Shown here piece by piece: positions 191-34,700 of a DNA stretch of 64,000 nucleotides. Position 1 is the stretch's first letter; each line of letters opens with the position of its first letter. This DNA comes from Diadema setosum (Eukaryota; Echinodermata; Echinoidea; Diadematoida; Diadematidae): the NCBI RefSeq assembly GCF_964275005.1, contig NC_092700.1:24165674-24229673 (forward strand). The letters run 5' to 3'. Made by a program: the position numbers and the translations under genes. The notes beneath the pieces were generated by a model that saw nothing but the letters and a program-made list of their open reading frames with translations, was not told the DNA's origin and made no database searches.

Positions 191-499
191 GCACTGTAGG
201 CACTGTCCCGACCGCGATCGGATGGAAAGATGAAAACACGCGTTTGCCATGTATGTTTGATGTAAGACCGCAAGCTGTGTACTGGGAGAAGGAGAACATG
301 ACGCATCCAGGACAGCCGCTGACCTTAGCTTCATTCTTTCAGCAGAAATTTACGAGCAAGATAGAAAGGTTCCACATGGACGAGGATTTCGGCCTCATAA
401 TTACCAACCTAGAAGTGTCTGATGAGGGTTACTACAAATGCCAAGTGGTGCTTCTAGATTTTAGTGATTTCTCGAATTCAACCTTTCTTACCGTGAATG
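191..499 (+). CDS. Copy A exon: V-set-like Ig domain
   Basis: Phase 1-1 exon of 309 bases, the usual layout for an Ig-domain exon. It shows the B-strand Cys in LPCMF, the core Trp in AVYW, and the D-E-G-Y-Y-K-C motif of the F strand. N-glycosylation sequons are NMT and NST. The acceptor is doubled: AG at 189-190 and again at 198-199, both keeping the frame, so the true start may be 191 or 200. The donor at 500 reads GTGCGT. Confidence 0.85.
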
Positions 500-2032
500 G
501 TGCGTTCAGAGTACAGTATAAAAGTGTTATAATAATCAGATTTATGATAAAGCGATATCATGCTAACACAATTAATCTGTTTGAAAAAAGGAAAATAACT
601 TCAACAACTATTACATGACCCTCCTTCGCCAATCAATTTGACGCAATCTCTTGGTCTTTTTTTTTTAACTCAAGCATAACCCTGGAGCCTGATGTACGTT
701 CTTAGTACTTTCTGAATGTCTTTCCTGTATAAAGTGCTCATTATGTTGAGACATGTCAGTGAAGGTCAAGACTGGTTTCACTGGTTGGTTATGAATACAA
801 TGAATCAATTATTGTAATCAGTAAACACAATCAAATCACTACTAGACTATCAAGGGATTATGCGACCATTTACAACGGTCAGTTGTGTTTGATCTTTGAT
901 AATCAAGATGGGTGTTTTGATCTCAATGAAAGAAGGAGAAATGGTTCACTATTTCAAAGCATTCGGCCGATGATGCAGATATCCTGTGCCTGAGTTGGTA
1001 TGGGATGGTATGATATGGTACGGTTTATTAGATAAAAGATATTCTCGCTGCCAAGCGGCTGAATTGCAACATTTGCTCACAAAATGATACTACAATACAA
1101 AGTATCTGTGAACACAAATGAAGATCATATTCGTTTTAAAATGCTAAAAACAAATACCTACACTAGTATCATCTATTTCATGGGGGTTAAAACAATCACT
1201 ATATCTAAGTGCGCATGGATATGTCAGGTGCGTAACTTGGTACCAATTATGTCCACGCAAAACGAAATAGGTGTTGTTATTCTATTTCATTTAATATTCT
1301 AAAACTTTTTTTTTGTCGAATAAATCTCCTTTAAGTTAAGTGCCCATGCCTGCCCAAGTGCACTCGGGACTAGTCTTCGATGAGTTTTATTGATATCGTC
1401 ACGGTTGTGAGTTTTACTGGCTTTATTATTCTTAATGCTGTCTTCGTTAATATAGTCTAAATAATTATTGCAATTCTCATTAAAATTACTCTCAGCCATG
1501 GCTAAGGATCATATCATCGAACAATGTGTCGAAGAGGTTCATGGTTTGAGTCCTTGCACTATTCAAACGTCGAAGGAAGCCCCAACTTTTCATCTTGACT
1601 GTCGGCTCACGGGTTTCAAGCCAAACGTGTCGCTTGTGTGGAGCAAATCGGGTCGAGCACTGCCTCCAGTGAGGTCCAGCCAGCACACTTCTCCAGACGG
1701 GACTTTCGAGAGATTTGAGACAATAACTGTTACAGCCAGTCACGACACGGAACAAAACTTCACCTGTACGACATCAGGTGATTCCGTGAACGGAACCTCG
1801 TCAAAGGTTATCACTGTTTTACCTTTGAAAGGTGGGCAGTTAAGAAATATTTACTTCTATTAATCACTTTAGTACTTAATTATGTTTTTATACTAAGAAT
1901 CTTTTCTTTATTGTACATTATACGATACATTATTATACTGTTAGTACAATACTATGCAACAATATACTTACATGCATATAACATAATTGATATAATCATA
2001 TATGATATATATATATATATATAGTATTTATA

Positions 2033-2086
<54 letters not shown>

Positions 2087-5000
2087 AGGCATATTATATA
2101 TAATATACTTAATCACATAAGATATATATATATATATATATATATATCAACATTATATATAGACAAACATATATCAATACATTACATAGATATGATATAA
2201 TATTGTACGACACATACGTGTGTGTTGGCAAGACTGTGCGAATGTTTATCAGGTTTTTGTTTTCTTTTCCTTGTTTTTTTTTACCCTTGCACAGAGTGAG
2301 GTTAAAGACAACTGAATAATAGTTTTCTAAAAAGCAGTCTTGTCAATTGTACTATTTCTGACATTAAAAATACACTTCTGGTAAATAATGTTATCATTCA
2401 AAATCATACAAACCATATTTGAGACGCATCATACTCGATTTTCAAAAAGAGAATTTATCTATCACGTAATCTATCTGAATGTGATATTGGTTTAACCGTT
2501 TCTTGCTTAAGTTCGTTCAAATCTACAATTTTATATCATATCATAGCAACAAGATCACACAAGCTCATTGCATATAATTAAAGGCTTACATTATAGTGCA
2601 TCAACTTGCATTTGACTCTCTCGACAGGATAGAGAAATTAAGACATTTGAAAATAGTAATGTGACATTTGATTGTGTGAACAATGCATATGCTTGTCTGT
2701 TTGTAAAAAAAAAAAAAAAGAAAACTGAAATTATGTTTATGACTTGTCCCTCCGCCCCCCTAAAAACCAACTTTGCCTTAAGGTACAACAGAGGAAAAAT
2801 ATAAAGAAATGCAAATGCAGCGATCTAGATTGAAATGTGCCATTTCAGCAAAAGAAATACAAACTAATATGTATATATATATAATATATGTATCATATAC
2901 ATATGTTGAAGAAAAAAAAAAAGAAACCCCAGAAATTTAGCAATTTCAATTCTCAAACGGGATTATAATGGTTCTGCATGGGTATAGAAATCATGTAAAT
3001 ATCATAATTTATATTGGCAGTTAAAATGTGTATATCATAATACCTATCAGTTTTTCCACACATTATTTCTGTGTGTTGCTTTCCTTTCAATTTGTAAATG
3101 CTCGGTTTACCCGTCCGTTTATGAGATTCCTTCCTCTTTCATGTACTTTAACCCTTTACTATACACAACGGGATTGGATATTGCTTTAATGGGGGATTCT
3201 TCATCCTAAAAATTACAAGTTCATTAATATCAATCGTTTATTGTGGTCTTTGTTACGTTTACAGAAGAAAAAGACACTTCATCAGGTCCAAACAGAATGG
3301 GGCTCGGAATTGGACTGACGTTGTTCATTCTGGTCCTAGTGATAATAGTACTCTTTCTGGTAACTGGAAAGCTTTTGCAGAAGTACAGACCAGAAATCAT
3401 GCCTGAAGGTAAATAATATGTCATATTTGAGAGTATGCTATGTAAGTCAATTTGCTTGTTTCTTTTTTTTTAGTTTTCTTTTTTTTATACTTCATTGTGC
3501 TTTTGGGGATTTCGAGATTTCTGGTGAATTGCTCGTCATTTCTTTCTAAAATAGGTGGTATGCATTTACCTGCATAATCATTTCTATTTTTTATTTGGCA
3601 GAATCCTTTTATTAATTTGTTATTTCTGTACAACGTTCGGACTCTTTTTCACTGAGACCAATGTATCATTCTTCATAGTGTCTTTATCACATCCACCTTA
3701 GGAATAACGCCGAGTAGTAGTTGTCGTACTATATCTCGACTGTGACGTCATAAAGGCGTCATATCGCCTGTATTCAAACAACTATCAAGCATCACGAATC
3801 GACGAAATTTTGTTTAAAAAAATAAGTCATGGGTTAACTTCTGCGAGATTGTGGTCCGCACACGGGAAACTTAAAATGGTAAACCCAAGCTGTGACAGCC
3901 TGTGACTGAAACAAGTGACCGTGTGGAAATAAAATGAATGAATGAATGAATGAATTTACGTTTCAATCCCCTGTCACATCGTAAACATATAATAGTATGG
4001 CCTAGAACAGGTATCTTGTAAGACCTACAAAACGAGTTCACCGACCTCAAAACAGAGCCCTGTTTTATCAAAAGATATAATCGATTATAAATTTCTTTAC
4101 CACACATGCTGCCATAGACTAACCATGGAAATCAATGCAAATCAATTACACTAATCATAAAACAGGGTCCAGTATATGTCTTTGCATATTTGTTATTGAA
4201 CTGTACTTATGATGTCATATTCTGTGCATTTTTATGTCAAAACGTGGAAAGTGTAACTTACTGCAATATTTGTCTATACATTTTGTATACTTAACGATGT
4301 TCATTATTTGAATTGTATCTTCGTGTATCTGGATTAAATTTCTCGCAATTTGATCAGAGTAGGTTTCAAATTTTGAAGTATAGTTGACGGCATTGTAAGA
4401 ATCCTTAAAGAGTGCATAGTCGACAACTTAAAGAGTGCATAGTCGACATCTGGCCAGAAAATACTCTTCTGTACAAGTCTGCGGGAGATCAATTATTTCA
4501 GACATCAAAGTATACCTTGTTTTTAACGAAAATGAAATTTATAAAGTATCGGTAGTCTCATGTTGAGACGTCATTTTACATACTTTCTTATCGTATCTAT
4601 GCCCAAAGTAACATTACACTGTATATGAGCTGACACACTTTGTTAGAGACTATTCCTTCAATGAGCTACGGTGCGGATGATGATATAGGGATTACTGGTT
4701 GATTCTTGATAATGACTGCACAAATAGCATCATTTTGTCATAAATATTGAAAATAAACATTGCCCATTGCTAAAATGAATTTCCTCAGTTACATTATGTA
4801 GCCTCGAATTATGGCAAGATTGCACAGTCCCCAAGCGCTCCTAAAACAAAAACAAAAAAACAAAAAACAAAACCAATAACAAATAACAAACAAACCAACT
4901 AAAAGAATCTTGACTACTTCTTATCGTGTTATTTCTCTTTCTCTACATTTCTGACAAACTGTATAGGATTGACATGGATTCCATGCTGGAAGAAGCCATC

Positions 5001-8000
5001 AGAGAAGGACATTCCACTCATAGAGCGGAGGGGTAATATGACGTCTTGTACCTTCCGTCTCCCCCCCCCCCCCAACAAAACAGAACACAAAAGAACAAAA
5101 AAAAACACACACATACACCCATACACACACACACACACACAAAACGAGATCTTCCGGAACGATAACTTTAAAAATAGTTAATCAATCCAAATATGAAACT
5201 ATTACATTACCCACATCCATTACCCACATCTTACAGAAAACACCATCCGATTTGCTTCAGCGGTTGAAGGAAAATGGGGATCTTTGAGTATGTCAGGAAT
5301 AACTTCCCTCCAAGTTCTGCCCATTGTGTTCACACATTGATATGCAGTTCCAATTTGCTTAACTTGGAAGAATCACAGACCCATGCATGACATGCTTTAC
5401 AATGATCCACATTTCTCTGTGAGCACTTGACCAAATTAAATGGAGCATTCTGCAAAATAAAGGTAAGATGATATATTTTTAGACCCTGAAATAACATTTT
5501 AGTAAGTTTAGTAATATTGACCGTTATCAATGCGGAAATCCGATTGTATTTTTTTTTTTTTTTAATGGGGGAGGGGACATATACGTGTATATTGCACGAG
5601 GGCGTGGGTGGGCAATGGGCATGCTGTATTTTTTTCTTTATTTCAGGATTGAACATCGAAACTAATTACACCGGTGTAGGTGCTCGTCGAATGTCTACAA
5701 TAGCATCGTAATTAATCAGGTTTTCTGTTTAACTGCACTTTTTCGGTATTATTTTTAAGCTATCTAGTTTGCATCATTTTAGTGTTAAGACAAATATCTC
5801 AGCTTAGATAAGAGGGCAGAGAAGATCTCAAGCTTGTTAGATTTTTTATATACTCCTTAAATGAATAAAAGTTTGTTTTCATTAAACTATTCCAATTAAT
5901 TCCAAGCTATTAAAGTTCATGTGTCTTTGTCTATTTCCAATGATTTTTTTTTTTTTAATCGAGTCAAATTGAAATTCAGAAAGAATATAGGATAGCTAAC
6001 CTGCTGTGATCGTGGTTGGTTTGGTTATACTATAATGTACTTAGTTTCCCGGTGAGTACATGATTGAGAGAAACACCAAATTACCGAACTGTTCTTCTGT
6101 AATAGTGCGTATCTCTTCAATAATTATTGCTTTCGGAACTTTAATGTCTTGTAGACAAAGATGGACGACACAAAACCAGAAAGCTGTATTTGTGGCTTCT
6201 TTGTATGTATGTATGTTTGTTTGTTTGTTTTTACATAGCCCGAGTGCGAGAGGATCTTCGAGATAAAATACGTAACTACAGACCGGGGAGTGCCCGGGAA
6301 ATGAACCTAGGCGATCTGAAGCTAGTCAACATCAATCTATTCGGACAGATGAGCGCAGGAAAATCTGCCTTCATTAACTCGCTTTTCTTTGCCTTCAAAG
6401 GTAAGTCTGCATATTCTGTTGGGAGATTACTTCGTAGCTAAAGAATTGTCCTCGATGATTTCAAGAAGGTAAGGTGATTCATGATATTGTAACAAAACAG
6501 TCCTGCATGTATCCGTGAGTTTTACAGCGAAACATTGTTTTTCTGCTGTAAAGATGATATCCTCATCTATACAACATACTACAGTGTATATCGTAAATTT
6601 ACAGACGCAATACACCTTCCTCTTCTCTCAGAGCAATTCTGTTCTAAAACTCAACTTGATTTGATATAAGCATGGAAATAAAAACAAATAGAATATGAGG
6701 AGTGGTCAGTAATACTTTCAGCACATCCGTAAGGATGAATTACAGTCAAACCTGTCCATAGCGGCCACCCAAGAGAAACGGAAAATGTGGCCGTTATAGA
6801 CAGGTTATCTAACTTAGTGTGCATTGCTTACATGTACATCATCGTTGTATCCTTAAATGTACATGTATGTGTATACGTATGCACACACCGTGTGTTTCGT
6901 GCATTTAAACATGATGGTGTATATGAAATTGTTGCACAGTAGTATGTGTATTGTCTTGAAGAAAGCTTTACACTAGTGCATTATTACGATTGAATGAGGG
7001 ATGAATGCAGCAATGGCGATCACTGAACGTTGCCCGCACGGCTAAAAAGCAGAAAAACACGCTGAATCATCGGCTCGGCTACGTCTCCATTGGGTTTTTG
7101 GCCGCTATAGACAGGTTAAAGTCGACCGCGGGAAACAACATTTGTGGCCGCTGGCCGCGTTAGACAGGTGGCCGCTATACACAGGGTCTCTAACAGGGCT
7201 TAACTCTCGGGGGGGGGGGGGGGGGAATTGGGATTTTTCAGTGGCCGCTATAGACAGGTGGTCATAATAGACAGGTGGCCGCTGAGGCAGGTTTGACTGT
7301 ACGCTGAAATAAAAGACAACAGGATTTATATGCTAATTAAGAAAGTAATGGATTTATGATAAGACACTCACTATTGCACTCGCACAGCACTCACCCACAT
7401 CTTCTTTTCCCCTCTTAAGCATACTATTGTAATGTAGAAAAAAACACCCTGTACTTTTTGTGAGAGGCACACCTGAGTTATATTTCCCAATTAAGCCATC
7501 TGAGCCCAGTCAAGCTATGCTTACGCGGGCGGTCTCCTGCAGCTTCCTTATTGAATCAAATGTACTGTCTTATTTGTATTATATGTAACTATAAATGTTT
7601 TACAAAGATTTACGTTATGCGTGTAGTATAAACTGTACTTTTGTGTGGTTCCTTTGTCATTTGGTTATGTTTTGTTTAAATTTTGTCACATTAATGTTAT
7701 TAATTTTTTATATTTTTTCATTTGTTTTCATTTGAGAAGGAAAATAAATACGGACGAACAAACGAACGAATATAATTCATTCATTCATGTTTTTATTTTC
7801 ATTTTCAATCAATATACAAAGGGAATACAAACGTCAAATGAGTACATATCTTGTAACATTATAATACATATTGTTTCATAAAGGACTTTGTGGAAAATTG
7901 AGGGGCTGCTAAAAAGCGAACTTGCATAGTGCAGTCCCCTCACTTACGTTACATTACTACAGTACATAGCTCACAATACTACAATACGTGTACCGTACAA

Positions 8001-11000
8001 GTTAATCATTGAAAGTATACACTTTTCATTACATCAATGGCAACATGAAACATCCACTTTCACACACACACACACACACACGTACACACACATGCATACA
8101 TATACATACACACACAGAAGAGAGTAGGGAAAGAGAGGGAGGGAGGGAGAGGGGGGAGTGGTATAGAGAGAGAGAGCGAAGGGCAGGTAAGTATTCTCGA
8201 TGCAGGGCAAAGAAAAGAGAAAAATAATTCCAAAACAGGCAAACTAATCATTGGGTACATAATAACTAATCAAATATTTCTTTAGATTACTAGAAAATGA
8301 TTTCAAACTAGGGAATTCCAAAATTTTGGCCACTATAAATAAACGTAGATTTCATATACAGAGTTCGAGTAAGGGGCAAATGATACTCGTCTGTTTGACG
8401 AGTGGGGTATTTATGGATACTTTTATTCTTATTAAACATATTTTGAAGAACTAAAGGGAGTGAACTGTTATGTAAACTATACATAAATTGACCAAGATAA
8501 TAATAATACAAATCCCTAACTTTAAAAACCTTATTTTCCACAAATAAATCACGAGTATGGGAATATTTGGAGGTATTACATATTACTCGAAGTGCTAAAA
8601 AATAAATCTATCTAAATAAGTTGTATGTGTATTCCCCATACTATAATTCCGTACGTTAGATAAGGTAAAATGAACGTTGAATATAACATTAACAACGTTT
8701 TAACAGGAAAAAAAAACAACTATACTTTATCAATTACACCTATGTTACTTGAAATTGTACGGCATATACAATCTATATGTTGTTTCCAAGAGAGCTTATT
8801 ATCTACAGTTAGACCGAGAAATCTAACAGAATAAACCCATTTATCACTTCATTTTCAAAAATTATATCATGTGGCAATCTATCAAGGGCATTACAAAATA
8901 ACATCACACTTGTTTTATGTGAAATAAAAGATTTACGTATGATAACAGAAATATTTAATTCACATTTATCGAATATTGGCCGGAATCTTTGTGAAAATAT
9001 CCCGTTGTCTAGTGATATGTTTTATGATTACTTTATTTCACATCCATCATTCTTAATTTTAGAAATAACATTTCATTCCTTATGCTTAATCAATGTTTCA
9101 TTATTCAATTTCCAAGTATTACGCATATCATTTTTAAACAAATCTAATTTTCTTATATGATAATTCTTTTTTTCTTTACGCAATTCCATGGTGAGAGTAT
9201 TTTTATATGCAGTATATTAATTACTTATCACCGGGATTGCTGTGTTTTTTAACCTTATATACATAATATAGATTATTTTTACGATTAAATGAACGTAATA
9301 ATGACTTTGACACCCATGGCAATCTAAGATCACACTTGTAATTACGCAACTTCTTTCTAACTAATGGAATATGCATATCTAATAAAGTAACAATCTTATT
9401 TATGAAAAAAATATAAGCTATATTCGTATCTTGCAACACATATAAATCAGACGATGCGATTTCCATCAAAGACTCTTGAAACCGGACTATATTCTGAGAT
9501 GTAAACTTACGCCTTCTTTCATAATTTTGAACTTTCTTAGTCTTTAAATGTAAAGATGAGCACATGTAAATTGCATAATGATCAGATATATCCGTAAGTA
9601 TAATAGCAGAATCAGGAAGAGGGTTAACATTCCAAAAAAAATATACATATCTATTAAAGTGGCAGATTATTCTGTCACACGGTTTGGTTTTGAAATCAAG
9701 GGTGAGAAATATGCAGAGAGCATAATATTGAGAAATTCCTCGGGGTTATACAAATCATTACATTTACTTAAATCAATATTAAAGTCACCCATTAGATAAC
9801 ATTCTTCATTTGAAACTGAAGGTTCTTGTAATATTTCATAAAAAAATTAAAAAAACCCTATTTTATATATGAGTATAACGATACTGGGGATTATTTCCTA
9901 CATGTATGTATTTCATTAAATTTTAGTAAACATCCCCCTCCATGGCTGACCTTCAGAAAGTTCAAAATGCAGGGTCATAGAGAGTTTGAGCTGCTGTACC
10001 CATACATGTGCCAAATTTGATGGCAATACATGGAAAATCAAGATAACGAAGTAATTCTATATGGGGCTCAATGTCTCCCCCTCCCCCCCCCCTCCGAGTC
10101 CTGGTAATGTCAAAATAGCTTGGGTTTTATAGGATTAAATATGCCTCTCGTACAGGAACATTTGACGATGTAGCAGCTGAAGGAACTGCTGAGAGCGGGG
10201 GTGGTCACACCAAACAGCGTAACCACCATCCGTTGACTGACTACATTACAGTGCAGGACAACCGTGGAATGCAGAACTTTGACTTAGATGAACTAGACCG
10301 GATTAAAGATGAAATAAGTAAGTTCAACGTCCAACGTCATATTCTTACTCAAGGGGAACACGAGGATGTACATAGGAGGAGAAAGGGAGCGATAAATGAA
10401 ATTATTCTTTCTCACTTTCCGTCGACATTTCTAGAATCAGTTTCATTGTCACGACATTAACATCGTTTTTAAACCAATATCTGATAATGTAATTGTACTT
10501 AGTAATAAGGCACTGACAATAGAAACGTTGTATTCTTAGAGTTAATTTATATCACACTGTTGATTATCAAAAAAAAAGTTTCAATGTTTATCATTTTTTT
10601 TTTTTTACCATAGGTACCAGCTGATACTTTACCATTTGCCCTGCCAGGAGAAGCGATTTAAAGCGTGTAGGGGTTGTACTGATTAGGCAATTTCAAGAAA
10701 ATCCTAACTGAGAGTAGATGCGTGCAATGATAAACAATGTACCTCTTGCTTTCCCATGCATGTATACAGTTCATCATGTTCATAACATTACCGTAGGATA
10801 TTTGAACTAACATTTATTTTGACAGTGAGTGTCAATAACATTAACACGTTGTTAATGCTGACTATTTTTTTTTTCAGAGGGTTGCAGAAGCATGGACACG
10901 GAGCACAAAATAAAGAAAGACAAGTCTCAAGAATGCCATGCAGCTGTCTTAGTATACCACAAAACGTGAGTTAAACATCAACTGGAAAATAAAAGAAGTA

Positions 11001-14000
11001 GGCCCTTCATGTATATATGAAATGATTAGACAAAATGGAGCATGTTAGATTTCACTCTATTTGTTATTTGTATAAGGGAATTTGTCTTTTGCACTATTGT
11101 TATACCAAGTATACGAATTGTGAAACGCAAATGTATATTCATGATGCTCTCTATACCGGATCGATTAAAAAAAAGAAGAATCCTAAGGCTGCTTCCTTTT
11201 GTGAAGCCGAAGTATGAACTAATCTTATCCATACACACAGAGAAATTAGGGTTCTATTAGGGTTCTTATTTGCACCCTACGAGCAAATCTAACTAAGTGG
11301 CACCTTATAGGGTTCGGGATGGATGTAGAGGTGCAAATCCGAACCCTAAAGGGAGCCAAGTCTTAAGGGTTCGAATTTGGAACCATTCCATAGTCTTTCC
11401 CGAAAGCTGACATGTGGGTGTTGAATGGTGTTTGCTTAAAATGCCACACTATTTTTGGATATTATCGTATATTTTTATTTGAAAATATAACTACACGTTG
11501 TTAAAGACTGACAGTGTCATCCGTAATACTGTACTAAAAAAATACTACTTGAATTAAACATTTGTTTTTTCTTCTCGCACCGGGATCAAGAATATCATTT
11601 CAATGACGTTATCATAGAGAGAAAGCAAACGAGTACAAGTACACGTATTATGCGTGCACTTGACGCGTGGACCGTTGAGCACTTGGTCAATGGCAAAACT
11701 AAAATCGCATGCGCACGCCACGCCGTAGGTCGCGCGGTATACGTACGTGCATACTACTGACGTTCCTCGTTTGGAATGGACAGACGACCGTGAGGTTTGG
11801 ATGATGAATTAATCTTTTTGATGGGCCAAACGTTGTGAGTAGATAATTGTACTGTAATTCCGTTGAAAATATTTCACAGTGATCGATGATATGTGTGAAT
11901 TATGCTCATAGAATGCTGAGTGGTGAAAACTGATGCGAAAGAGTTGTATCGAGGTACGTGTGTACTAACATGTCAGAAGTGCGATCATACATACAGTAAA
12001 GCATAGCGAATAAGTCAATGAAAGTGCACGTTAATACGGAAAGCCTCAACCAAGGTACTAACTACGACCAACAGCCCCATATGCATAGCGTAATTACGCT
12101 ATGCGTATGGGGCTGCTGGACGCAGTTACCAAGGTACGTACGTAAATAGGTGACCGGATATTGTCGCATCATTTTCGTTAATGGGAATTATTACGTTTGA
12201 GCCGAGTTGAGGCTCAGTTGGATATTGGTTTCTGTGAAGTTGACAGAAAGAACGATGTAGGCATGTATGATGTGCCTAATGAAGAAAAATAGTGTTCCTG
12301 GTTCATTTAGGAGAATTTAAGACATGTATGAAGATTGAAGTCAGAAAATTTAGGTTGGCCTTGACTCCTTGTTGTCTATCAATGAAAATAGAATGTGTGT
12401 TATAAACATAAAATGTCTGTTATCACAGAGCATAAGCAATGATACACGATATGTGAATTTAGATAATATCCACTGGAGAAGTTGCATGTGCTAGACATGA
12501 CATAAAATAAGTCACACAAACAAGGTATGTAAATGGTAAATCACTCCAGAAGTTCAAATACTTGATCCCATACTTTAGCAGGTAGATATTCCAATATTGA
12601 CTGTATGTTGAACTTTGTTTTATTCAATTACAGGTTGAACCTTGCTGATCCATGCTGATGCATGGTGTTAGCTTGGTCTCATACTGGGCCAAAGGGACCT
12701 GTGTTTGATTGATTATTTATCATCGAGTTCACTATGCATGAAGTTTAATGATGGTCTTCAGGATGAGTGATGCAGGTCAACCTCGAGAGACTGGTGAGCC
12801 ATATAGGATGCCAGAGCTGGAGATGGAAGATGTTCAGGATGTCAATCCTGGTTCCTCGTTGAGTCAGTGTGGAAGCCATGCCAGTTCTTCTGAGAGTGAT
12901 GGCCAGAAGGGCATATTATTTGGCAGCTGAAGCAGCTGCTATAGAAACGCATAAAAAACTAGAGCTCGAGGAGTTTCGACTTATGCAGCGTAAGATGAGA
13001 TTAGCTATGAAGACCATGCTGCATGTTGCTGAAGCAGAGGAGCAGATATACCTTGACTACGAGAACAAGAAGTTGGGAGTCGGCTTTCCTGTGAAAGCAG
13101 AGGATGAAACCTTGCTGTACCCAACTGAATGTGCCAACCAACCAGTACACACGAGTGCACCGATTTCCCTGACTAGAGAAGTAGCAAAAAAGTTATTTTC
13201 AAATTTTCTTTGACTTTTAGCAGATATAATGCAAAAGCCAATAAGATCATCAGCATCATGTAGTATCCCTGAACCAGGTTTGATGAAAGCCCATCAATTT
13301 TTCCGTAGATACATCCGTACAGACCGGGAGACAGACAGGCAACCTGAAAACATATGCCTCCGGCACCATTCAGGGCGGAGGCATAATAATGAGACTCCTA
13401 TATGTCATGTATGTTTAAACCATATAAAATTTGAGACGGGCCACATTGAATTCCCCCCCCCCCATTAGAATTGCTAAACACCACGGCTCTAGAAACATCT
13501 TTCCATTTTAATCCAGAAAGTAATCACCTCCCTGTTTTTAGCCGAGGGTGAGAATAAAGCCACTCCATGAAATGAAGATTAGCATTTTTTTTTTTGCAAA
13601 ATATATGTGAAAATGTCTAATTTCATAGATAACAGTAACTATTTATTCTGTCTTCTAAACTGTTGTCAGGTTATTCCCTTTCTTAGAATGCACTGGCCTT
13701 TAATATTAACAAGAATACTCTAAAGAAATATATAATAGAAAAATACAAGAGAACGAACTTGCAAATTACAAATTTAAACACAGTCTAAAAAGAACTTGAC
13801 TTCTATTCACTTTTATCTTCTTCTTTTTTGGGGGGGGGGGGTGCATAATGAATGAAAATATGAATCTGCTAATGGATATGAAATACTCAAAGTATGCTTT
13901 CCATTATATTTCATACTAGATGGGGTTAGTTTGTATTGTTCATATTTTATATAGTTATTTCTTCACCATCGATAGCCTCAGTGCTTCAACAACACATGCA

Positions 14001-17000
14001 CACTTTGAATTGATTGTTTAAGTAGGGAACACAAAAAAAATAAGTCGCCTGCTGTTTTTTGTAGTAGACAGCCACACAATAACATGTCAATTTTGGGCAA
14101 TCTCTGGCAATGCAATGTCATAAGTGGAGTAGCTTTGTGACACTTGACAAAAGCATGATTTTCTCACAAACCCTTTATGTATATAAGGATTAAAAAAATA
14201 GAGTTTGTTCCAAAACCTGAGAAAGCTCAACATATCATATCTACTTCTTTTTTTTTTTTTTTTTTTGCATATAAAAGAACACTGGACTTCACTCTTTAAG
14301 AAGGCAGAAACTATTATCAATTCCTTACATACGTCAGTGACTTGTCAAGGAAATGTGCATGTTTTTCCTAAAAGAAAAAAAAATGAAATTCTTTTTAGGT
14401 TTTCCTTGAATTGTTCTACGCATGTGACATCATAAACTCTTCTCACTCTGCTGCGACTGCACAAATGTTTTAAAGATTATTAACTTTTGAACTGAATGTC
14501 CGCTTTTCAATTTTTTTTTCTGATGTGTTCTAATAGTATAAGCTAGCTTGGGGTACCAGTTTGAGCATGTGCAGAAAAAGGTTATTTGTACCGAGAGACA
14601 GGTTGGTTTTTTTAATTTCACTGAGATAAGCATGTGTAATGCTAGGATTATTCATGGAATCCTTATAAATGGTGCCTGCCAGTACATCCACTTGACAGCA
14701 AGCCTGGTATTTGGCAATGTTAACACACAAAAAAAGTTTGTTAACATATTCAAGACAGCACTTGATAAAATAGATGATTCCCTAAGTGTTGATTGACGAA
14801 CCATACTGGTCACTTCATCTACACTGGTTAGGTTCATTCTTTGTTTGAATATGAGTTCCATAAATGGCTATGGTGGGCAAGCTGCTGCATTATGTCACTT
14901 TGCATTGAGTGAAGTGCCTAACCAACTGAGAAAAATGAAAGGTCATTTGTACCTATGTGCACATGAGCTATCTCCGGACTGGCTTATTGCTGCGCATTCA
15001 CTCAATCCACATGTAGGTCTATATGAAGGTGGACTTGCCCTCTAACTCTGATTATAATTTCAAGCTTTCTTTAAGTAGGTTGTATAAAGTGGTGATATAT
15101 TTGTGTAAGGTTTGGTGAAAATTAAGTGTTGAAATCATAAATGATTGGGAGAGTTGTGAGACTGTAACATCAACACTTGAGGTATTTCTCGTGCATGATC
15201 ATAAATCTCTGTAAAATATTGATGGTAATAGTAATAATAATAATAATAATGATGATAATAATAATAGGAATAATAATGATGATAATAGTAATAATAATAT
15301 ATTTTGCTCCCGATCATTATGCTTGTGATGGTGCCAATACCAATAACTGCTTATAAATGTGAAAAATCGACTGCTCTTTACAATATTTTGAATGTTGGGG
15401 CTAAACTGCATACATTGTGTAATTATATTTTTGGTCTACTGAGTACAATGTGCTTCTTGTTTCCATCGCTTGGAAAAAAAAAACCCAATGTATCAAAAAA
15501 ACAAAACTGTTTTTAAACTTGTCTCACTGAAGACATATTCCTTCCTCTTTATGTCCTGTTTGTCATACCACTGATTGGTTAACCTTATTTTCCCTTTCTT
15601 AGGTAACATTTTCTGTGGAATTGTTAGTGTTAATTTGATGCAATAAAAAGTGTATTCAGATGTGCTATTCTGCCCGAGATTTATAACTGGGACATATCTT
15701 TAGCTGTGTGCATAAAAAAGTAACCAAATTTAGATGTGCATTCTTCATTTTTTGATTCTTTTTTCACCTTATCATTGGTGTAATTGTATATGAAAAACAA
15801 AATGTGAAGTATACTAATTGTATAATGGGGCACATTCGCAAGCTCTCAAGCTTGGAATTGGATGGAATATGTCAGTACAAGTAGTGAGTTTCAAATATAT
15901 ATGACAGAACTTTGCCATACCCTTCATTGTTTTGGCAGTAACTTGTGTACAAGAAATCAGAGTTGACATATCGCTGTTAATGTCTAAGAGCGTCATAAAG
16001 GTGCTTTTGATTACCGTAAGATGTACCGGTAAATTCAAGGTACATATCTATGATCCATTCTAGAAGTAAAAGGACAATGTGAAAGATATTTGTCACATAG
16101 TTTACTATTACTCTGCACAAGCTTCAGGGATTTTTTGTATAAAAAGAATTAGTGCTTTTTGTCAATGTGGTAACTTCCTTTAAAAGAAGCAAAAGTAATC
16201 ATTTGATGGAAAGAACAAATATTTTTCTTCTTATTCAATGTACTGACCAAATTTCATACATTTTTGATTTACATTGCCCTTTTTATGACAAAATATGCAT
16301 CTCGTATGAGAATTTGTAGAAATACAATGTATATTTGATGTTCATTTTAAAGTAAACCATGAAAAAGAAAATCGCTGTTAACTTGTCCCTCTTCCATGAG
16401 ACATATAATAAAATGTTAATAATTTATATGTAAGTATGCACTGTATTCATCATGTTTATGTTCTATTTGTTGTTGAATTGAAGTCTCTGACTTCAGTTTT
16501 CGAAAGATTGTGGATTTAATTGACTGAGAAACTGTGTGTAAATCTGTGCATGCTATTTTTGCTTCATGTCTGGAGTGTTACCGTAGGTAATTGTTTGTGA
16601 AGTCAGTGAATGCATCCAGTATATGATTATTTTGGTTTAAAAAAAAGGTTATAATTTTCACCACATGGGGTGCAGAAAGGTAACCCTAAATAGAGACGTG
16701 TGCAAATTGTATTGCATCCTATATTGCGGTGACTTTATCACCCCATAGGGTGCAAAATTACAACAATAACAGTATGAACCATAATGGGTACAGGTATGAG
16801 GTGCAGAAGGGGAACCCTGTATAGAGGTCCATATTTGCACCTTATAGGGTGTTGAATATAGGGTGCTAAATAAGAACCCCCCAAAATAGAACCCTAAATG
16901 GAGCCGCTGGTGTTACAACGATATGAACCTGAAAGGGTGCAAATTTGCACCTGAATTTTTGTTCACCCTATGGGGTGCAGAAAGGGAACCCAATGGAGGG

Positions 17001-19484
17001 GTGCAAATATGCACCATATCTGGTGTTAAATATAGGGTGCTAAATAAGCACCCTCAAAAATAGAACCCTAAATGGAGCCGCTGGTGTTACAACGATATGA
17101 ACCCTATTGGGTGCAAAAGGGAACCCAATGGAGGGGTGCAAATATGCACCATATATGGTGTTAAATATAGGGTGCTAAATAAGCACCCCCCAAAATAGAA
17201 CCCTAAATGGAGCCGCTGGTGTTACAACGATATGCACCCTCTAGGGTGCAAATTAGAACCGTAATTTCTCTGTGTGTAGTTTCTGCTATACGTAGGACAG
17301 GATGGGACAAATTACTGTAAACATTCAACTCGCGATAGGTTAAGCGTGTTTTCAGATAGTGCGATATCCGACGGAAATCCCTCAATACTTTAATGACATA
17401 CTTACAGTAGGAAGTCACGGTGAACAGCCGCCGAGATTGAAAATGACATTGGGCATGCGATATTCATGAAATAAAAATCGCAGAAAATGCACATTTTTTT
17501 GATAAAGGAAAACAAAGTCGGATGGCTTTTACGTCCGCGATATTTTGCCTTATATTCTATGCACATTATGATGTAGAAGCAGAACACATTTGTAATAATT
17601 GCAAAAACGTTAATTAACAAAGTACATGTAAAAATGAGTAGCAAGATGAAGAAAACATATGTATTCGCATATTTTGAATTAAATAAGGAAGGGGATGGAA
17701 ATAGAGGGTACCACTAAAATGCAAACCTTGTACTATATGAGACCTTCAGAAAATACATGAGAAAATGAGTAATGAATTAACAAACTACAAACCCATATAA
17801 AACAAAATCAAAAGAGCCAATGTCAACTGACATGAAATGAACTTAAGAAGGAAAGAAAAAGAAGATTAAAGGGGAGAAATGAAACTACAACACCGCCATC
17901 GTGGACAGAAGAAAAGTGGATCTCATGATGTAAGAATATTGATTAAAATCAACCGGGATTGAATATATTACAAAGAATGTTTGTGTACAAAGTTATACCT
18001 GTAAGATTGAAGAAGAGCTGACATAAAAGAAGGAGAGACTAGACACAATGGTATATACCGTGTGATAACAGGAACATAATGCGGAGAACTTGTGTTTGAC
18101 AGGTTATTTTTCTCTAATGGCAAAAAATACATATCTATTATCGTTTAATGGCTAAATGAATGGTGACTTGATTAACATAATTAAGCGAACATAATGCAGT
18201 TGTATACAATAAGATTTCAAAAAAAAATGTTCATTTATTCTATTATCAAAAAGTGTTATTCGCATCACAATGTGTAGTAAATAGAAATGTTTTTGCTTTG
18301 ATTTGCAGGCAGATAGGCGAGCATGAAGCTCATAGATTCATCCACCACTTCTTCCAAGAGGTGAAGAAAATTCATGGTACGTTTAATTTGCTCCTTCTCT
18401 TTTTAGATACGTGTTCTTGAGATGATAAAAATAAGAGCATTGAAGTCAAATAATCATCTTGTTGAGCTGAAGTGACAAGACACAGCTTGTTCGATGAATA
18501 AAGATCACAGGCACTGCAAATACAATAATTTAATTTCTAATGATAGCAATCATCCTCTACAGAATCTCCGTTCTGTTGTCATAAACTATTTTTCAAGAAA
18601 AATGCAGGCTATACGCATATAAACTTGTCCTTTTTCACTATTTTTTTTTTGGTCAAGAAGCCATTGCAGAACTCGTGCAGTCACACGCGTACTTTTAAAG
18701 AACACAAAGGAATCCTGCGATTCCAATACGTGTGAGAAAATTGAGTTTCAGACCACTGAAACCATCAGTTACACAATACTTGTGATACCTTGTTCACAAT
18801 ATAGCTATGCTTGTGAATCAGAGGAATTTTTAATCCTTGATGACTACTATACTATATTGAAATCGACGTAAGCTCATTTTGGTCAGGTTTACGTTCTAGG
18901 ATTTTCTGCGTCGTATCCTGTTTGATTGTTCTTCATTTCACATTATCTGTTTGCATTTTTTTAGTCTGTGAAGTTTGAAAAGTCAGGCAGATTGTCGGAT
19001 ATAATATGGCGGCAGATTTGGAACAAACAAAGATGATTAGATGGATGTAGAGACAAACTCTCAAATCACTGTGTAACTATGACTCAGAGACATTCGGGTT
19101 TTCTTCACTCTCTTTACATTTTTCATCTCACACTTTAGCTTGCATTAGTCAACGCACAAACATGTAGAAACACACAAATATATAAATGCATTCATATATG
19201 AAGAGTTTGTTCGCAAAAAACGATAAGTCCATATTTGCCAAATGGAGATATTTGCGATTAAAGGTCAAGAGAAATAAAGAGAATAAGAAATGTTTTGGTT
19301 CTTTTGACCATAACTTCAAAAATGTACCTTTATATGTAGTGACCAATATATCATTTAAAAGATATTATTTTGTACTTTATGACAGAGACCGTACTTCAAA
19401 ATCTTCAGAAATGGACATATCGGTTTTTGCGAACAAACTCTTCATATACAGAATAATGTATGACATATATGCGTAATAAATGCA

Positions 19485-19529
<45 letters not shown>

Positions 19530-19624
19530 GAGGGTCTTATTTATCTATATTTTTTAATTTGCAATTATATTGACTAAAACAAACATCCTCTTTGCCAACA
19601 GAAGTTGTCAAGTGGTTGTTGTGG

Positions 19625-19658
<34 letters not shown>

Positions 19659-20258
19659 CTATATGGGTATGTGCTTTTGGTAGACCCTCTATTTGGACTT
19701 GTCTTTTGAGGCATTACATCAGGCGTTACACTGTCCTGAAGTTGAGCAAAGATGGAAAGAGATATAATTGCTAACTGAAGATCGAAATTGCTTTGACTTT
19801 CATCACTTCGCGCGATATTGAAAATTTGCTTGCGTCAATTTCGGGACATTACGCCAGCCATGGTGACTCTCCACTCAAAATGTCTCTTGAATCTTCCCTC
19901 AGCGTCTTCACCACTGCTCGTTATAACTCACGGGGATGAATACCCAGACGCCAGGACTGTAGTTCAGAATGTCAAAAACTTCGTCGGCGACCAGAAAAGA
20001 ATCCTTTTGTTGGCTAATTACAGAGAGGATGATCACAATGAGGACGTCGAGAAGGACATCGAGCTGTTGCAGTTTCTGTGGACGACTTTGAAGACTTGCG
20101 ATCAGAATGCCTACAATCTTGCTATCAAGAACGAGGAGATTATTGTCGAAGAGCCCAAGCCAAAACGTCCCACCACTTCCTCTCAAAGTCATCGGGAAAG
20201 AGAAGCGCAAAGACCTAGCGTAAAACCAAAAAATGAAAGCTCGTGCAGTGTAATGTAA
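191..20258 (+). CDS. Copy A: Ig-Ig-TM-IFI44-like GTPase gene (9 exons)
   Basis: Seen: nine exons (191-499, 1496-1831, 3265-3408, 4967-5032, 6239-6400, 10156-10317, 10878-10965, 18309-18376, 19858-20258), all with AG/GT borders, join in one frame of 578 codons plus stop. Every junction is phase 1 except the phase-2 junction after 10965. Residue order, counted from the split codon at 191: V-like Ig 1-103, C1-like Ig 104-215, TM helix about 226-250, linker 264-285, GTPase from 286. The GTPase has P-loop GQMSAGKS (321-328), DNRG (374-377) and THGD (469-472), and the protein ends in CSVM. The signal-peptide exon should lie left of base 1, as in copy B. Known: IFI44 proteins carry a P-loop GTPase fold and respond to infection in vertebrates. 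Inferred: a surface Ig receptor with a cytosolic GTPase effector. The exon chain is manual, without transcript support, so small exons could be missed. Confidence 0.82.
500..1495 (+). other. Intron of copy A
   Basis: Intron between the two Ig exons. No coding signal, repeat family or RNA gene is recognised. The acceptor at 1494-1495 follows a T/C-rich stretch. Confidence 0.7.
1496..1831 (+). CDS. Copy A exon: C1-like Ig domain
   Basis: Phase 1-1 exon of 336 bases, the same length as its partner in copy B. It has a B-strand Cys in FHLDC, Trp in LVWSKSGR and an F-strand Cys in NFTC. Sequons NVS, NFT and NGT suggest an extracellular, glycosylated domain. The DGTFERFETITVTA stretch with the closing Cys looks like a C1-type D-E-F strand layout. 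Donor at 1832 (GTGGGC). Confidence 0.85.
1832..3264 (+). other. Intron of copy A with AT microsatellite
   Basis: Intron. It holds (TA)n and (TG)n tracts around 1996-2150 and A or T homopolymers. No gene is seen. Confidence 0.7.
1996..2150. repeat. (TA)n / (TG)n microsatellite cluster
   Basis: Interrupted TA dinucleotide runs with a short GT run near 2073-2087, followed by another TA run near 2121-2148. Confidence 0.9.
3265..3408 (+). CDS. Copy A exon: stalk and transmembrane helix
   Basis: Phase 1-1 exon of 144 bases. A short polar stalk is followed by about 24 hydrophobic residues (beginning MGLGIGLTLFILVLVI) and then a basic stop-transfer KLLQKYR. This predicts a type I single-pass protein. 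Copy B keeps the same GPN-x-x-x-x-LGIGLT start and TGKLLQ end. No ITIM or ITAM tyrosine motif is visible. Confidence 0.85.
3409..4966 (+). other. Intron of copy A
   Basis: Holds an (AATG)n run at about 3931-3956 that looks like a LINE 3' tail in plus orientation, a 25-bp direct duplication (AAAGAGTGCATAGTCGAC) near 4407-4447, and an A-rich (CAAAA)n tract near 4843-4895. No coding exon is recognised. Confidence 0.6.
4967..5032 (+). CDS. Copy A exon: cytosolic linker
   Basis: Small phase 1-1 exon of 66 bases that follows the TM exon. It encodes LTWIPCWKKP and then a charged tail ending LIERR. Copy B has the matching, shorter exon (36196-36243) with LSRIPGWKKP. The shared IP-x-WKKP core supports both as real coding exons. 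Confidence 0.75.
5033..6238 (+). other. Intron of copy A with C-run, (CA)n and a possible alternative end exon
   Basis: Contains a C homopolymer near 5061-5073, a CA tract near 5104-5140 and the candidate terminal exon at 5647. The acceptor for the P-loop exon (6237-6238) follows a (TTTG)n tract. Confidence 0.6.
5647..5711 (+). CDS. Possible alternative terminal exon (short-tail isoform)
   Basis: After acceptor TTTCAG, a phase-compatible frame of 20 codons runs to TAA at 5709-5711, and an AATAAA signal follows at 5864-5869. If used after the linker exon, it would give a membrane Ig protein without the GTPase. There is no copy B homologue at the same place and no transcript evidence, so this is a suggestion only. 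Confidence 0.25.
6239..6400 (+). CDS. Copy A exon: GTPase G1 (P-loop)
   Basis: Phase 1-1 exon of 162 bases. A basic, helical lead (VREDLRDKIRNYRPG) precedes beta-1 VNINLFGQMSAGKS and the following helix SAFINSLFF. This matches the IFI44 P-loop style (FGQISAGKSSF in the family). Copy B is nearly identical from VNINLF onward, which shows purifying selection on this motif. Donor GTAAGT. Confidence 0.9.
6743..7299. mobile_element. pogo/Tigger-like MITE
   Basis: Ends CAGTCAAACCTG and CAGGTTTGACTG are inverted, each flanked by TA (6741-6742, 7300-7301). The inside repeats short stretches about gccgctatagacaggt in both orientations. TA target site and CAGT start fit the pogo/Tigger group of Tc1-mariner. 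No transposase is present. Confidence 0.75.
7470..7772 (+). mobile_element. LINE 3' UTR and tail (plus strand)
   Basis: The 3' end of an L2/CR1-like element ends in AAATAAATACGGACGAACAA-like sequence with a GAAC microsatellite tail (about 7751-7770). Orientation is taken from the tail. No ORF remains. Confidence 0.45.
7777..9830 (-). mobile_element. LINE ORF2 relic (endonuclease, RT remnant, C-terminus)
   Basis: On the minus strand the pieces come in the right order. Endonuclease motifs GDFNIDL and SDHYA lie near 9790-9560, then the linker domain (9221-9565, open for 114 codons). RT remnants follow near 8840-8700 (FLGLTVDNKLSWKQHID), and a C-terminal piece ends near 8308. The catalytic core of the RT is missing or scrambled, and stops and shifts are present. 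The (ATGA)n tail at 7777-7790 marks the 3' end. The family looks like L2/CR1/Jockey. Confidence 0.75.
8063..8182. repeat. (CA)n and (GA)n microsatellites
   Basis: CA-rich tract (8063-8117) followed by a GAGA/GGGA-rich tract (8118-8180), inside the 3' part of the LINE relic. Confidence 0.9.
10156..10317 (+). CDS. Copy A exon: GTPase switch region (G3-like DNRG)
   Basis: Phase 1-1 exon of 162 bases. A Gly-rich acidic loop leads to beta strand TDYITVQDNRGM and helix FDLDELDRIKDEI. In IFI44 relatives this place holds a DTxG motif followed by a similar acidic helix. Here the D-x-x-G is DNRG. Donor GTAAGT. The lower identity expected of this loop may explain why no copy B partner was recognised. 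Confidence 0.8.
10878..10965 (+). CDS. Copy A exon: GTPase core strand
   Basis: 88 bases, phase 1 in and phase 2 out. It encodes a charged turn followed by ECHAAVLVYHKT, which fits the IFI44 strand before the G4 motif (RIHCVxxVxDA type). Acceptor TTTTTTCAG, donor GTGAGT. The frame joins 10317 and 18309 without a break. Confidence 0.7.
12072..12115. repeat. 44-bp near-perfect palindrome
   Basis: Two 22-base halves starting CAGCCCCATA and ending TATGGGGCTG meet at TAA/TTA, with one mismatched pair. It sits in the left third of the 6-kb transposon. Confidence 0.9.
12748..13213 (+). pseudogene. Gag-like coiled-coil ORF relic, frameshifted
   Basis: Two overlapping frames (12748-12930 and 12869-13213) look like one protein split by a shift near 12905. 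A Ser-rich stretch (SSSESDGQ) is followed by an Ala/Glu-rich helix (AAEAAAIETHKKLELEEF) with coiled-coil character. Such a Ser-rich lead plus A/E/K helix is familiar from N-terminal Gag-like regions of BEL/Pao elements in invertebrates. The match is by style only, and the relic could belong to the host transposon. Confidence 0.4.
14540..15045 (+). pseudogene. Transposon-internal coding relic, shared with the 46-58 kb composite
   Basis: Open stretches 14548-14796 and 14845-15045 are about 75% identical, by eye, to 47530-47960 and to the reverse of 57150-57740. Shared words are CNARIIHGILINGACQYIHL here and CDVMIIQVIIMSGACQHIHL there. The layout is faintly like the CD-x-PGS-x-HDS region of Harbinger (DDE_Tnp_4) transposases, but key residues are absent. 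Treated as a degraded transposon ORF of unknown type. Confidence 0.35.
15224..15302. repeat. (AAT)n microsatellite
   Basis: ATA/AAT trinucleotide run with GAT variants. Confidence 0.9.
16680..17265. repeat. Subterminal tandem repeats of the 6-kb transposon
   Basis: Units of about 135-170 bp, each with AACCCTAAATGGAGCCGCTG, GTTACAACGATATG and GGTGTTAAATATAGGGTGC, occur near 16889, 17063 and 17198 with a weaker unit before. They end at the right TIR, as transposase-binding subterminal repeats often do. Confidence 0.8.
18309..18376 (+). CDS. Copy A exon: GTPase helix before G4
   Basis: 68 bases, phase 2 in and phase 1 out, encoding QIGEHEAHRFIHHFFQEVKK. The first base completes the Thr codon begun at 10964. 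A second AG three bases further on would put TAG in frame, so the start at 18309 is fixed by the reading frame. Donor GTACGT. Confidence 0.7.
18377..19857 (+). other. Intron of copy A with MITE and (TG)n tracts
   Basis: Holds a foldback MITE (19195-19446) and two TG microsatellites (about 19492-19522 and 19627-19658). No other exon is seen. Confidence 0.65.
19195..19446. mobile_element. 250-bp foldback MITE
   Basis: The ends TATGAAGAGTTTGTTCGCAA and TTGCGAACAAACTCTTCATA are inverted. The TIR extends about 35 bp, with the next pairing blocks CGATAAGTCCAT and ATGGACATATCG. TA-rich flanks suggest a TA target site (mariner-like). Confidence 0.8.
19858..20258 (+). CDS. Copy A last exon: GTPase G4 region and CaaX tail
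   Basis: Final exon, phase 1 in, stop TAA at 20256-20258. After ACGCCAG the frame reads MVTLHSKCLLNLP, then strand SPLLVITHGDEYPD. THGD stands where IFI44 relatives have a T-x-x-D (LLTHVD type). Acidic helices follow, then a basic, Ser/Pro-rich tail ending SSCSVM. CSVM fits a CaaX box with Met at X, which favours farnesylation. The polypyrimidine tract before the acceptor is weak, so the start is the least certain border of the gene. Confidence 0.8.
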
Positions 20259-30093: not shown

Positions 30094-30166
30094 ATGGAAA
30101 GAAGCAACGAACTCATTTTTCTTTTTATTGTGACCGCTTGTGTGTTTTGTTGTCCTGTTGCAAAAG
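30094..30166 (+). CDS. Copy B exon 1: signal peptide
   Basis: ATG at 30094 opens a frame of 24 codons plus one base. MERSNELI is followed by a hydrophobic core FLFIVTACVFCCPVA, a typical signal peptide, then donor GTAAGC. The phase-1 end fits the V-domain exon. An in-frame upstream reading exists from 30004, but the T-rich acceptor at 30054 and the signal-peptide shape favour 30094. Confidence 0.75.
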
Positions 30167-31780: not shown

Positions 31781-34700
31781 GGAGATAGAAAAAAATGAAA
31801 TTCTAAGAGAGAAAATGGAGGAGCCAGCAGAGGCCATTGGTCTTTCTACCTGTAACGGCTGGACTCCCACTTGAGATTGTATGTACATTGTAATATACGC
31901 TTAAAAGAAGGGAAAGAAAGACAAATAACACAAAAACATAAAAACAGGCAAACTATGAGTGAAAAATGTGTAAAAATACACATTGAAGACATCACGTGAA
32001 TGTTTGATAAAACTTCTGCAAAAACTAAAATTATCTAACAAATATCTATTATATCTATATACGTTTAAAAGAGGCAAGGGTAGGACATAACTTCACTTCA
32101 TCAGGCACAGAATTACCAACATGTACTTCTTGATATTTAACCAGGGAGGTGAGACACCTCCCTGATTTAACAGATCTTTGCGATGTAACATATCTAAGAT
32201 GGGTAAATATACATTATAGTTACCAGTTTGTCTAGTGTTATATGAATGAATATCTCTCGTACATTTGAACATTGAACTGCACAGTTGGATTGATATTATT
32301 TAGGACCTATGTTTTCCATCTTGATGGAAATAATTCAAGAGCCAGCAAAGATTAATACTATCACCCTCACTGCAAGATACGCAGTACTATAACTACATGT
32401 GCCCAGAACAACTATAGGCCAGATAAATTAATGTAAGATTTCTCTATCATTGTTACAGACTTCTTAATCATAATATACTATATGAATATCCACCAGGAAG
32501 GTGAATACGTTTTCTTCAGTGTTTCATGTAAAACACTCGTTGAGGTGATCATAGTGTTCATCGTAAAAAACAGAAAAAAACAAACAAACAGAGTTGATTG
32601 ACTGTAACCCTTAGTTCAACGAGGTAGCAACAATTCACACCGTAAGATAAAATCAGAGAATACATGTTTAATGGATAGCAAAGGGCTTCATTTGGAAACA
32701 GATGAATTATCAGCACGCAAGCAGTGGTGCCCCCTCCCCCGAAAAAAGACAAAATTATAGCCAAATGAAACTTCATGTGCAATGGAAACGCTTTTTGCGA
32801 AGCGTTTCGTTCTGCCACATGGAAGGATTTGAAACACTTTGGGTTCGTAGTCAATTTGCTTAATATACAGCAGCTGATTCTTGCCAAGATGCTGAAATAA
32901 TGTATGAAATATTGCGAACTTAACCAACTATTTTTTTTAATGTCTTACGTTCGTCACACACCTTCGTCAAGCCTCGATGGTAGGTACCGACCCTATCGCT
33001 GAAGGATGGAAAGGGAACGACATCCGACTGCCGTGCATCTTCCACGAGGAGCCCTTCGCTGTGTACTGGTCGAAAGAAAACAGGTCAGAACCTGACCAGT
33101 TGACGAACAAAGCTACTTACTTCAACGGGGAGTTCTCCAGCAAGGAGAAACGATTTGTTATCGACACAAGCTTCAATCTCGTCATCACAGATCTGGAGGT
33201 GGCGGATGAGGGTAACTACCATTGTCAAGTGGTTCTAGAGTCTTTCCAGGATTTCTCGAATTCCACCAGTCTCACCATAAATGGTAAGTTAACAGTTCAC
33301 CAAAGCAGGGTTTACATACTCTTAAAACGGAAGAATGGAAAACGGAGATGATGATTTTGATTTATATAAGTTGTCACGATTGCTGAAAAACAGAAACAGC
33401 AGAACGATACAATATTCTTGTCATGTGAGTGAAACTTTTGTGAAATTGCAGGCTTATAGATGCAAGCGATTGCTGTTGGGAGGTGACTCAATGGAAGAAA
33501 AAAAAATGTGTTTCTTTTACTGGAAAAGAAAGCTCTCCAAAAAAGGAACGCAAAAGTGCTGCTGTTCTTCATCGACACTTTCGTAGTAAATTATACGTCA
33601 TGAACAGGTCGTGCATAAATAGATACGACAGAAAGCATACTGTACAAGATTTACCAAATATGCGAATGCAAGCCAACGTAAGTGCCAGCTGGTTTAATAA
33701 CTGCGTGTGCATTTGTTTTCCTGCAAAAAGAAAAAGAAAAAGTACTTTGCCAACCTGCATTTATTAGAAGAAAATTGTGATATAACATGCTAGGTAGTTT
33801 CATAATGTCACGATAATTTTCTTTTAACGTGTCTATGCAAGTGAAGAATAAGTGTTTGAAACTACATGGAGTGAAGATTTTTTAATTGGATTGTAAACTT
33901 GCTCAATCTTAATTCTCATAAAGTTATACATGCAGTATAGTGTATATAATAATAGAGCACAATTTTTATATGCAACATTGTCGTCAATGATTGTATAATA
34001 TAACATAAGTTTGCGTGAAACTATGTAGACATGCTTTCGATACACAAATAACCTGTAAAATTTACGTTGTACAGTCAAAGATTTTGTAGTATTAAGATCA
34101 TATTTGATAGTCATATATCATGTAAGGTTCTATGGAAGAAGAGAAAAAATTAAATAAAGTGAACTGAATTGAAATGAACTGGATACAAGCAGTAAAACAC
34201 ACTGATAACATCATTGCTGATGCGTCGTCCAATTTTCACAATAAATGCTCTTTGTTTATTGTTCTCTTCACGTGCGTATTACCTTAATTGTTGTCATCAA
34301 TCGTTCTTGAATCAGTCGCCATACTTATCATTGTCACTTCTGGCAGCCAAGGCGACTGAGCATATCATCGAGCAGTGTGTCGGACAGGTCCGCAGTTCGA
34401 ATTCTTGTACCATCCAAACGTGGAGGGAAGCCCCAACTTTTCATCTTGACTGCAGAGTCACGGGGTTTCGGCCAAATGTTTCACTCATGTGGAGCAAGTC
34501 TGGTCGAGTACTGCCCCCGCTGTGGTCCGACCAGTACACTTTGTCAGACGGAACATTCGAAAGACTCGAGACAATTACTGTTACCGCCAATGACAACACG
34601 GACCAAGACTTCAAGTGTACGGCGTCCGGTCTTTCAGTCGAGGGAACCTCAGCGAAAGTTATCACCGTTTTATCTTTTCATGGTAAGCGGTGAAGAAATA

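Follow-up and report, generated by a model that had tools for sequence, protein, structure and literature searches.

A predicted immunoglobulin receptor with an IFI44-like GTPase domain in Diadema setosum, from a Diadema family in which most members carry NACHT

Introduction

Among the described proteins close in layout to the one analyzed here is AjNLRC4 from the sea cucumber Apostichopus japonicus, which is reported to carry two immunoglobulin (Ig) domains and a NACHT domain and to reside in the coelomocyte membrane (PMC8699970). According to the same report, its Ig domains bind microbes, the protein dimerizes and is internalized, and the NACHT domain is linked to actin, promoting uptake; the authors knew of no earlier Ig-NACHT protein (PMC8699970). 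AjNLRC4 is also described as assembling with a caspase (PMC11932488), and sea urchin genomes are said to encode putative transmembrane (TM) receptors with V-C1 ectodomains along with expanded NLRs (PMC3308324). Here we analyze a stretch of 64,000 nucleotides from Diadema setosum (NC_092700.1, positions 24,165,674 to 24,229,673; the window), which contains a gene, copy 1, predicted to encode a receptor with two Ig domains, one TM helix and a P-loop GTPase domain. The predicted product resembles AjNLRC4, as far as the latter is described, in being an echinoderm protein with two extracellular Ig domains, TM and a nucleotide-binding P-loop domain inside, AjNLRC4 having neither leucine-rich repeats (LRR) nor CARD. 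However, the domain in AjNLRC4 is NACHT and not a GTPase, two TM segments are reported for it, and its description reports no CaaX box.

Other known proteins were compared with the window protein. IFI44 is an interferon-induced, cytosolic protein with a TLDc domain. IFI44 and IFI44L, in provisional reference sequences, share with the window protein the P-loop with its lead-in helix, a TH.D-type G4 and a C-terminal NY...KD...L motif, whereas the window protein has no TLDc and does have Ig domains and TM. Those guanylate-binding proteins that end in CaaX are immune GTPases, cytosolic and without Ig or TM, and they are likened to the window protein, by description only, for their prenylation-box ending. 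On the ectodomain side, butyrophilin/B7 proteins (e.g., BTN3A1) differ from the Diadema proteins, which have a GTPase or NACHT inside and no B30.2/SPRY domain (no match in the window protein at an expect value (E) up to 10). Some butyrophilins also lack B30.2/SPRY.

Gene model and domain layout

Joining at splice sites brings nine exons of the + strand, from 191 to 20258, into a single open frame of 562 codons (Table 1). All eight introns are GT-AG and seven of them are in phase 1, the usual intron phase of shuffled extracellular modules. The frame encodes, in order, a V-type Ig domain, a second Ig domain, one TM helix, a juxtamembrane exon and a P-loop GTPase. In the joined protein, Pfam V-set is matched with 37.2 bits (cut-off 26), and a single strong TM helix is predicted (Kyte-Doolittle mean 3.25), which argues against a cytosolic protein. 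Moreover, the copy 1 model is matched over 94% of its length, at 100% identity, by P0001 (540 aa), which NCBI names 'uncharacterized protein [Diadema setosum]'; the two differ by one extra Gly at the joint of exons 5 and 6 and in the last dozen residues. The Ig-Ig-TM-GTPase layout is also seen in a relative from D. antillarum. A chance string of open reading frames is thus rejected on the frame joins, the P0001 record and the constraint between the window copies described below.

A first-pass annotation of this DNA had proposed nine exons in one frame with two Ig domains, one TM helix and a P-loop GTPase, and this layout is present and agrees with P0001. Its single frame is retained at 562 instead of 578 codons, with the last-exon acceptor at 19903 as in P0001; the longer figure would fit an acceptor lying 45 bases further upstream. 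Also, of the V-set and C1-set domains that it named, the V-set is recovered, and exon 2 corresponds to C2-set_2 instead of C1-set.

No signal-peptide exon for copy 1 is found within the 64-kb window, and for this reason the gene model is incomplete at its 5' end, which lies beyond the window. D. antillarum P0006 begins with a stretch, missing from the copy 1 window model, that resembles a signal peptide. Past its donor, exon 4 remains open in frame (4903-5181), as P0006 is modeled, and a short form without GTPase, by read-through of this donor, is possible. Rfam and tRNA scans of the window gave no matches.

Table 1. Exons of the two receptor copies in the window
Feature	Position	Strand	Remarks
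Copy 1, exon 1, V-type Ig	191..499	+	Phase 1-1; Pfam V-set 41.0 bits, exon alone; splice sites
Copy 1, exon 2, second Ig	1496..1831	+	Phase 1-1; Pfam C2-set_2 27.1 bits (cut-off 21), exon alone
Copy 1, exon 3, TM helix (residues 229-247 of joined model)	3265..3408	+	Phase 1-1; Kyte-Doolittle 3.25
Copy 1, exon 4, juxtamembrane, GLTWIPCWKKP...	4967..5032	+	Phase 1-1; matches GCGW[IN]PCWRRP of NACHT-type relatives
Copy 1, exon 5, GTPase start: R..LR.KIR.Y.PG lead-in and G1 GQMSAGKS	6239..6400	+	Phase 1-1
Copy 1, exon 6, GTPase, G3 DNRG	10156..10317	+	Phase 1-1
Copy 1, exon 7, GTPase	10878..10965	+	Splice sites; 100% match to P0001
Copy 1, exon 8, GTPase	18309..18376	+	Splice sites
Copy 1, exon 9, GTPase G4 THGD, NY...KD motif, tail, C-terminal CSVM (CaaX) and stop	19903..20258	+	
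Copy 2, signal-peptide exon	30094..30166	+	81% match to P0004 residues 1-27
Copy 2, exon 1, V-type Ig	32972..33283	+	
Copy 2, exon 2, second Ig	34347..34682	+	
Copy 2, exon 3, TM helix	35479..35607	+	
Copy 2, exon 4, juxtamembrane	36196..36282	+	
Copy 2, exon 5, GTPase P-loop exon	36795..36956	+	

The Diadema receptor family

With the Ig-Ig-TM part of P0008, a relative from D. antillarum, as query (E up to 0.01), 102 proteins are recovered, all from D. setosum or D. antillarum and some matching part of the query only; P0003 and P0005 are among those recovered, with E of 9.4e-74 and 3.7e-70. Together with earlier hits, the family set amounts to 108 records, in which local profiles find NACHT in 77, a GTPase or a piece of one in 17 and neither in 14. 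The NACHT domain of P0008 scores 83 bits, and no NACHT match is seen in the window protein at E up to 10. The Ig-Ig-TM-NACHT proteins (P0008, P0023 and others, uncharacterized in NCBI) share with the window protein a homologous ectodomain, the TM helix and the juxtamembrane motif, but differ in the effector; in P0023, NACHT is followed by repeats that look LRR-like. Between NACHT and GTPase types the ectodomain is about 50% identical, the two Ig domains being 48% and 52% identical to P0008. The juxtamembrane motif G..[INH]P[CG]W lies at most 60 residues from the TM helix in 48 of the 77 NACHT records, 8 of the 17 GTPase records and 3 of the 14 others. By layout, AjNLRC4 resembles this NACHT branch, a comparison made with its published description.

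The ectodomain tree comprises 91 ectodomains (61 NACHT, 17 GTPase including the window copy, and 13 neither), 18 of the 108 records (16 NACHT, 1 GTPase, 1 neither) being left off it because the TM helix is missing or too near the start. On this quick, unrooted tree the NACHT/GTPase label changes once, whereas 200 shuffles never gave fewer than 12 changes; support for the dividing branch is 92.8, below the 95 mark. The swap may have gone in either direction. By the family search and the ectodomain tree, the window gene is thus placed, within a Diadema family of predicted Ig receptors with nucleotide-binding effectors, on the GTPase branch, the larger branch carrying NACHT. Joined Ig-TM-GTPase models are found at several loci in the two species, and eight of ten D. 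setosum GTPase-type records are on the 37886898-base contig that also carries P0001.

The first-pass annotation, made without this family context, had presented the gene product as a candidate new innate-immune membrane protein. That it stands alone as a novel protein is rejected, as the search with the Ig-Ig-TM part shows relatives: 108 were collected, most with NACHT in the place of the GTPase, and Ig-NACHT membrane receptors had already been described.

A C-terminal CaaX box marks the window's subfamily. CSVM closes the window frame, and the last residues are WCSVM in P0002, P0003 and P0004 and WCTVI in P0005, whereas a CaaX ending is absent from all 77 NACHT records and also from P0078 and P0095, the distant GTPase members. 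A prenyl group added there would probably help to hold the G domain to the membrane.

Several records depart from these two types. P0078 and P0095 form a second, distant GTPase lineage without CaaX, with a G domain nearer the canonical one. P0059 and P0104 combine family ectodomains with several modeled TM helices and a Pfam 'rolling stone' domain, which is either a different effector or an error of the models. P0097 combines Ig and TM with LRR-like repeats, NACHT not being found in it by profiles, and the Pfam domains of endonuclease type in P0080 (PF14529, PF03372) may derive from a mobile element. Also, several of P0010-P0012 and P0014-P0020 show a doubled V-C ectodomain with the TM helix near residue 450 or beyond, some being almost tail-less.

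Assignment of the GTPase domain

The G1 (GxxxxGKS), G3 (D[NT]RG) and TH-type G4 motifs are conserved in all seven members with a full G domain. In Pfam, the window GTPase stays below the gathering scores (in brackets) of MMR_HSR1 with 16.0 bits (21.9), Dynamin_N with 16.6 (27) and AIG1 with 16.0 (27), and IIGP is not among the matches of the window protein (14.6 bits for P0003, below the cut-off of 24). The paralogue P0095 does pass MMR_HSR1, with 24.4 bits. AIG1 is matched weakly in five of five close members, with a best E of 4.2e-5.

A profile of the seven Diadema G domains scores 22.2 bits against IFI44 and 22.1 against IFI44L (E about 7e-4 for a PDB-sized set), as compared with 4.8 for GIMAP2, 4.5 for IRGM and at most 7.8 for shuffles, the four reference sequences being provisional and not database copies. 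The IFI44 match is made up of the P-loop region and, as a second stretch, the C-terminal NY...KD...L motif; taken singly, the best stretch to IFI44 and IFI44L reaches only 18.1 and 12.3 bits. hhalign agrees with this match and extends it over the R..L...R.Y.P lead-in helix. Against 177635 PDB sequences the same profile finds nothing significant, the top chain scoring 16.4 bits and Irgb10, also among the top chains, 15.9; in all, the sequence searches of PDB gave no significant match (best E 1.5, 0.17 and 0.044). This suggests that the G domain is most likely of IFI44 type, although this is not proved. A plain IFI44 orthologue is rejected because the TLDc domain is absent: the joined protein shows no TLD(c) match at E up to 10, whereas the provisional IFI44 sequence matches TLD with 35.2 bits. 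The first-pass description of an IFI44-like GTPase is kept as regards the closest G domain.

Of 2729 candidates in a GTPase-only search (alignment A2), two proteins came within E 0.01; both are from Diadema, and no homologue was seen outside the genus, the search working through shared short words and limited lengths. The structure model of P0004 is poor (predicted local distance difference test, pLDDT, 48.9) and was not used; that of P0095 has a pLDDT of 79, and the fold matches listed for it are Ig structures.

Second copy in the window

A second copy lies at 30094-36956, with exon order and phases as in copy 1 through the P-loop exon (Table 1). It is identical to D. antillarum P0004 at 354 of 366 residues, and P0004 continues into a complete GTPase. 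A search of 36957-64000 (E up to 1e-3, among the matches listed) did not recover exons 6-9 of copy 2, whether through a long intron, truncation or assembly. A large inverted repeat (46761-52837 / 53100-58481, pieces 97-99% identical) sits where these exons might be sought, and is either a true palindromic duplication or an assembly fold-back.

Between the two copies, the ratio of nonsynonymous to synonymous substitution rates (dN/dS) is 0.209 overall (333 codons). The second Ig exon has a ratio of 0.25, the TM exon 0.27 and the P-loop exon 0.135; in exons 1 and 4 synonymous sites are saturated. The lowest dN is that of exon 2 (0.186), and the highest values are those of exon 4 (0.398) and exon 1 (0.363). 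Therefore, the tested Ig, TM and GTPase exons are all under purifying selection.

Discussion

We propose, with a probability of roughly 0.58, that the gene encodes a single-pass surface receptor with an IFI44-like GTPase, acting by clustering-driven GTPase activity at the membrane and leading to uptake. The ectodomain would bind a microbial or host-surface ligand and cluster, and clustering would bring G domains together for GTP-dependent dimerization, by which large immune GTPases are known to switch. Held at the membrane by the TM helix and probably a prenyl group, the G domain would act there, beneath the ligand, uptake being the most plausible outcome, as for AjNLRC4 through its NACHT domain. 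The direct coupling of ligand to GTPase is what we infer from the predicted layout. A wider proposal is more tentative, and we hold it as possible at somewhat less than even odds: Diadema would possess a two-effector system in which one expanded, butyrophilin-like Ig ectodomain family is coupled to either a NACHT ATPase or a GTPase of IFI44 type, with no adaptor or kinase in between, by a single ancient swap behind the shared juxtamembrane exon, and in which the GTPase arm, tethered by TM and prenyl group, acts on the ligand-bound membrane.

Several points weigh against the receptor proposed here. Gene and protein are predicted from sequence, and fragments make up several of the 17 GTPase records. 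The GTPase of the window member passes no Pfam cut-off, the IFI44 references are provisional, and the AIG1 match, weak as it is, covers most of the length of that model (21.3 bits in P0004, cut-off 27). One D. antillarum locus is modeled as two proteins, P0006 (Ig-TM, ending after exon 4) and P0009 (the GTPase start), for which contigs of equal length are recorded. NCBI's P0001 is spliced differently at its end and finishes without CaaX; the unspliced end is favored here because the ending is conserved. Also, a related sea cucumber protein is described with NACHT outside and Ig inside (PMC13133943).

Other explanations are held to be less probable. The cytosolic GTPase could instead be the sensor, reshaping the ectodomain and signaling to another cell, as BTN3A1 does via B30.2; the ectodomain model appears nearest to butyrophilin/B7 folds and NCBI names P0007 'butyrophilin-like protein 1', and such inside-out signaling is nonetheless unlikely in our estimate. 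The receptor could also be as proposed but with a GTPase of the GIMAP/AIG1 or IRG family, to which the AIG1 match in all five close members and the presence of Irgb10 among the top PDB chains would correspond. However, the provisional GIMAP2 and IRGM sequences score at the level of shuffles, against 22 bits for IFI44 and IFI44L, and hhalign reaches the IFI44 lead-in helix; this assignment is held to be decidedly unlikely.

A fusion in the gene model, of a neighboring Ig-TM gene with a GTPase gene that most transcripts leave unjoined, the short form arising by read-through of the exon 4 donor, would account for P0006 reading past exon 4, for P0009 beginning just before the G domain and for the window frame open to 5181. 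It is nevertheless improbable, given that several loci of the two species have joined models, the distant P0078 and P0095 among them, that eight of eight joints are in frame and that copy 2 has the same exon order and phases. Least probable is an adhesion or self-recognition protein in which the GTPase serves as a nucleotide-locked scaffold and does not switch. Adhesion molecules, JAML and nectins for example, commonly have V-C Ig pairs, but G1, G3 and G4 are kept in all seven members with a full G domain, and constraint on the P-loop exon is strong.

The literature searched, which was thin in subscription papers and preprints, yielded no receptor that combines Ig domains and a GTPase in this layout. 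Ig-NACHT membrane receptors are already known, and the GTPase as effector would be what is new here. Diadema has a recorded history of mass die-offs from a scuticociliate (PMC12865139). If the proposed receptor is correct, the genus would have more than 100 predicted Ig-NTPase receptors, and an animal receptor would couple the recognition of a ligand straight to a large immune GTPase, two things that vertebrates connect only via interferon induction of separate cytosolic proteins. Whether NLR-like receptors at the cell surface are an invention of echinoderms in general would also become a testable question. Moreover, the single effector swap on the ectodomain tree offers a natural experiment, with NACHT and GTPase set behind the same ectodomain.

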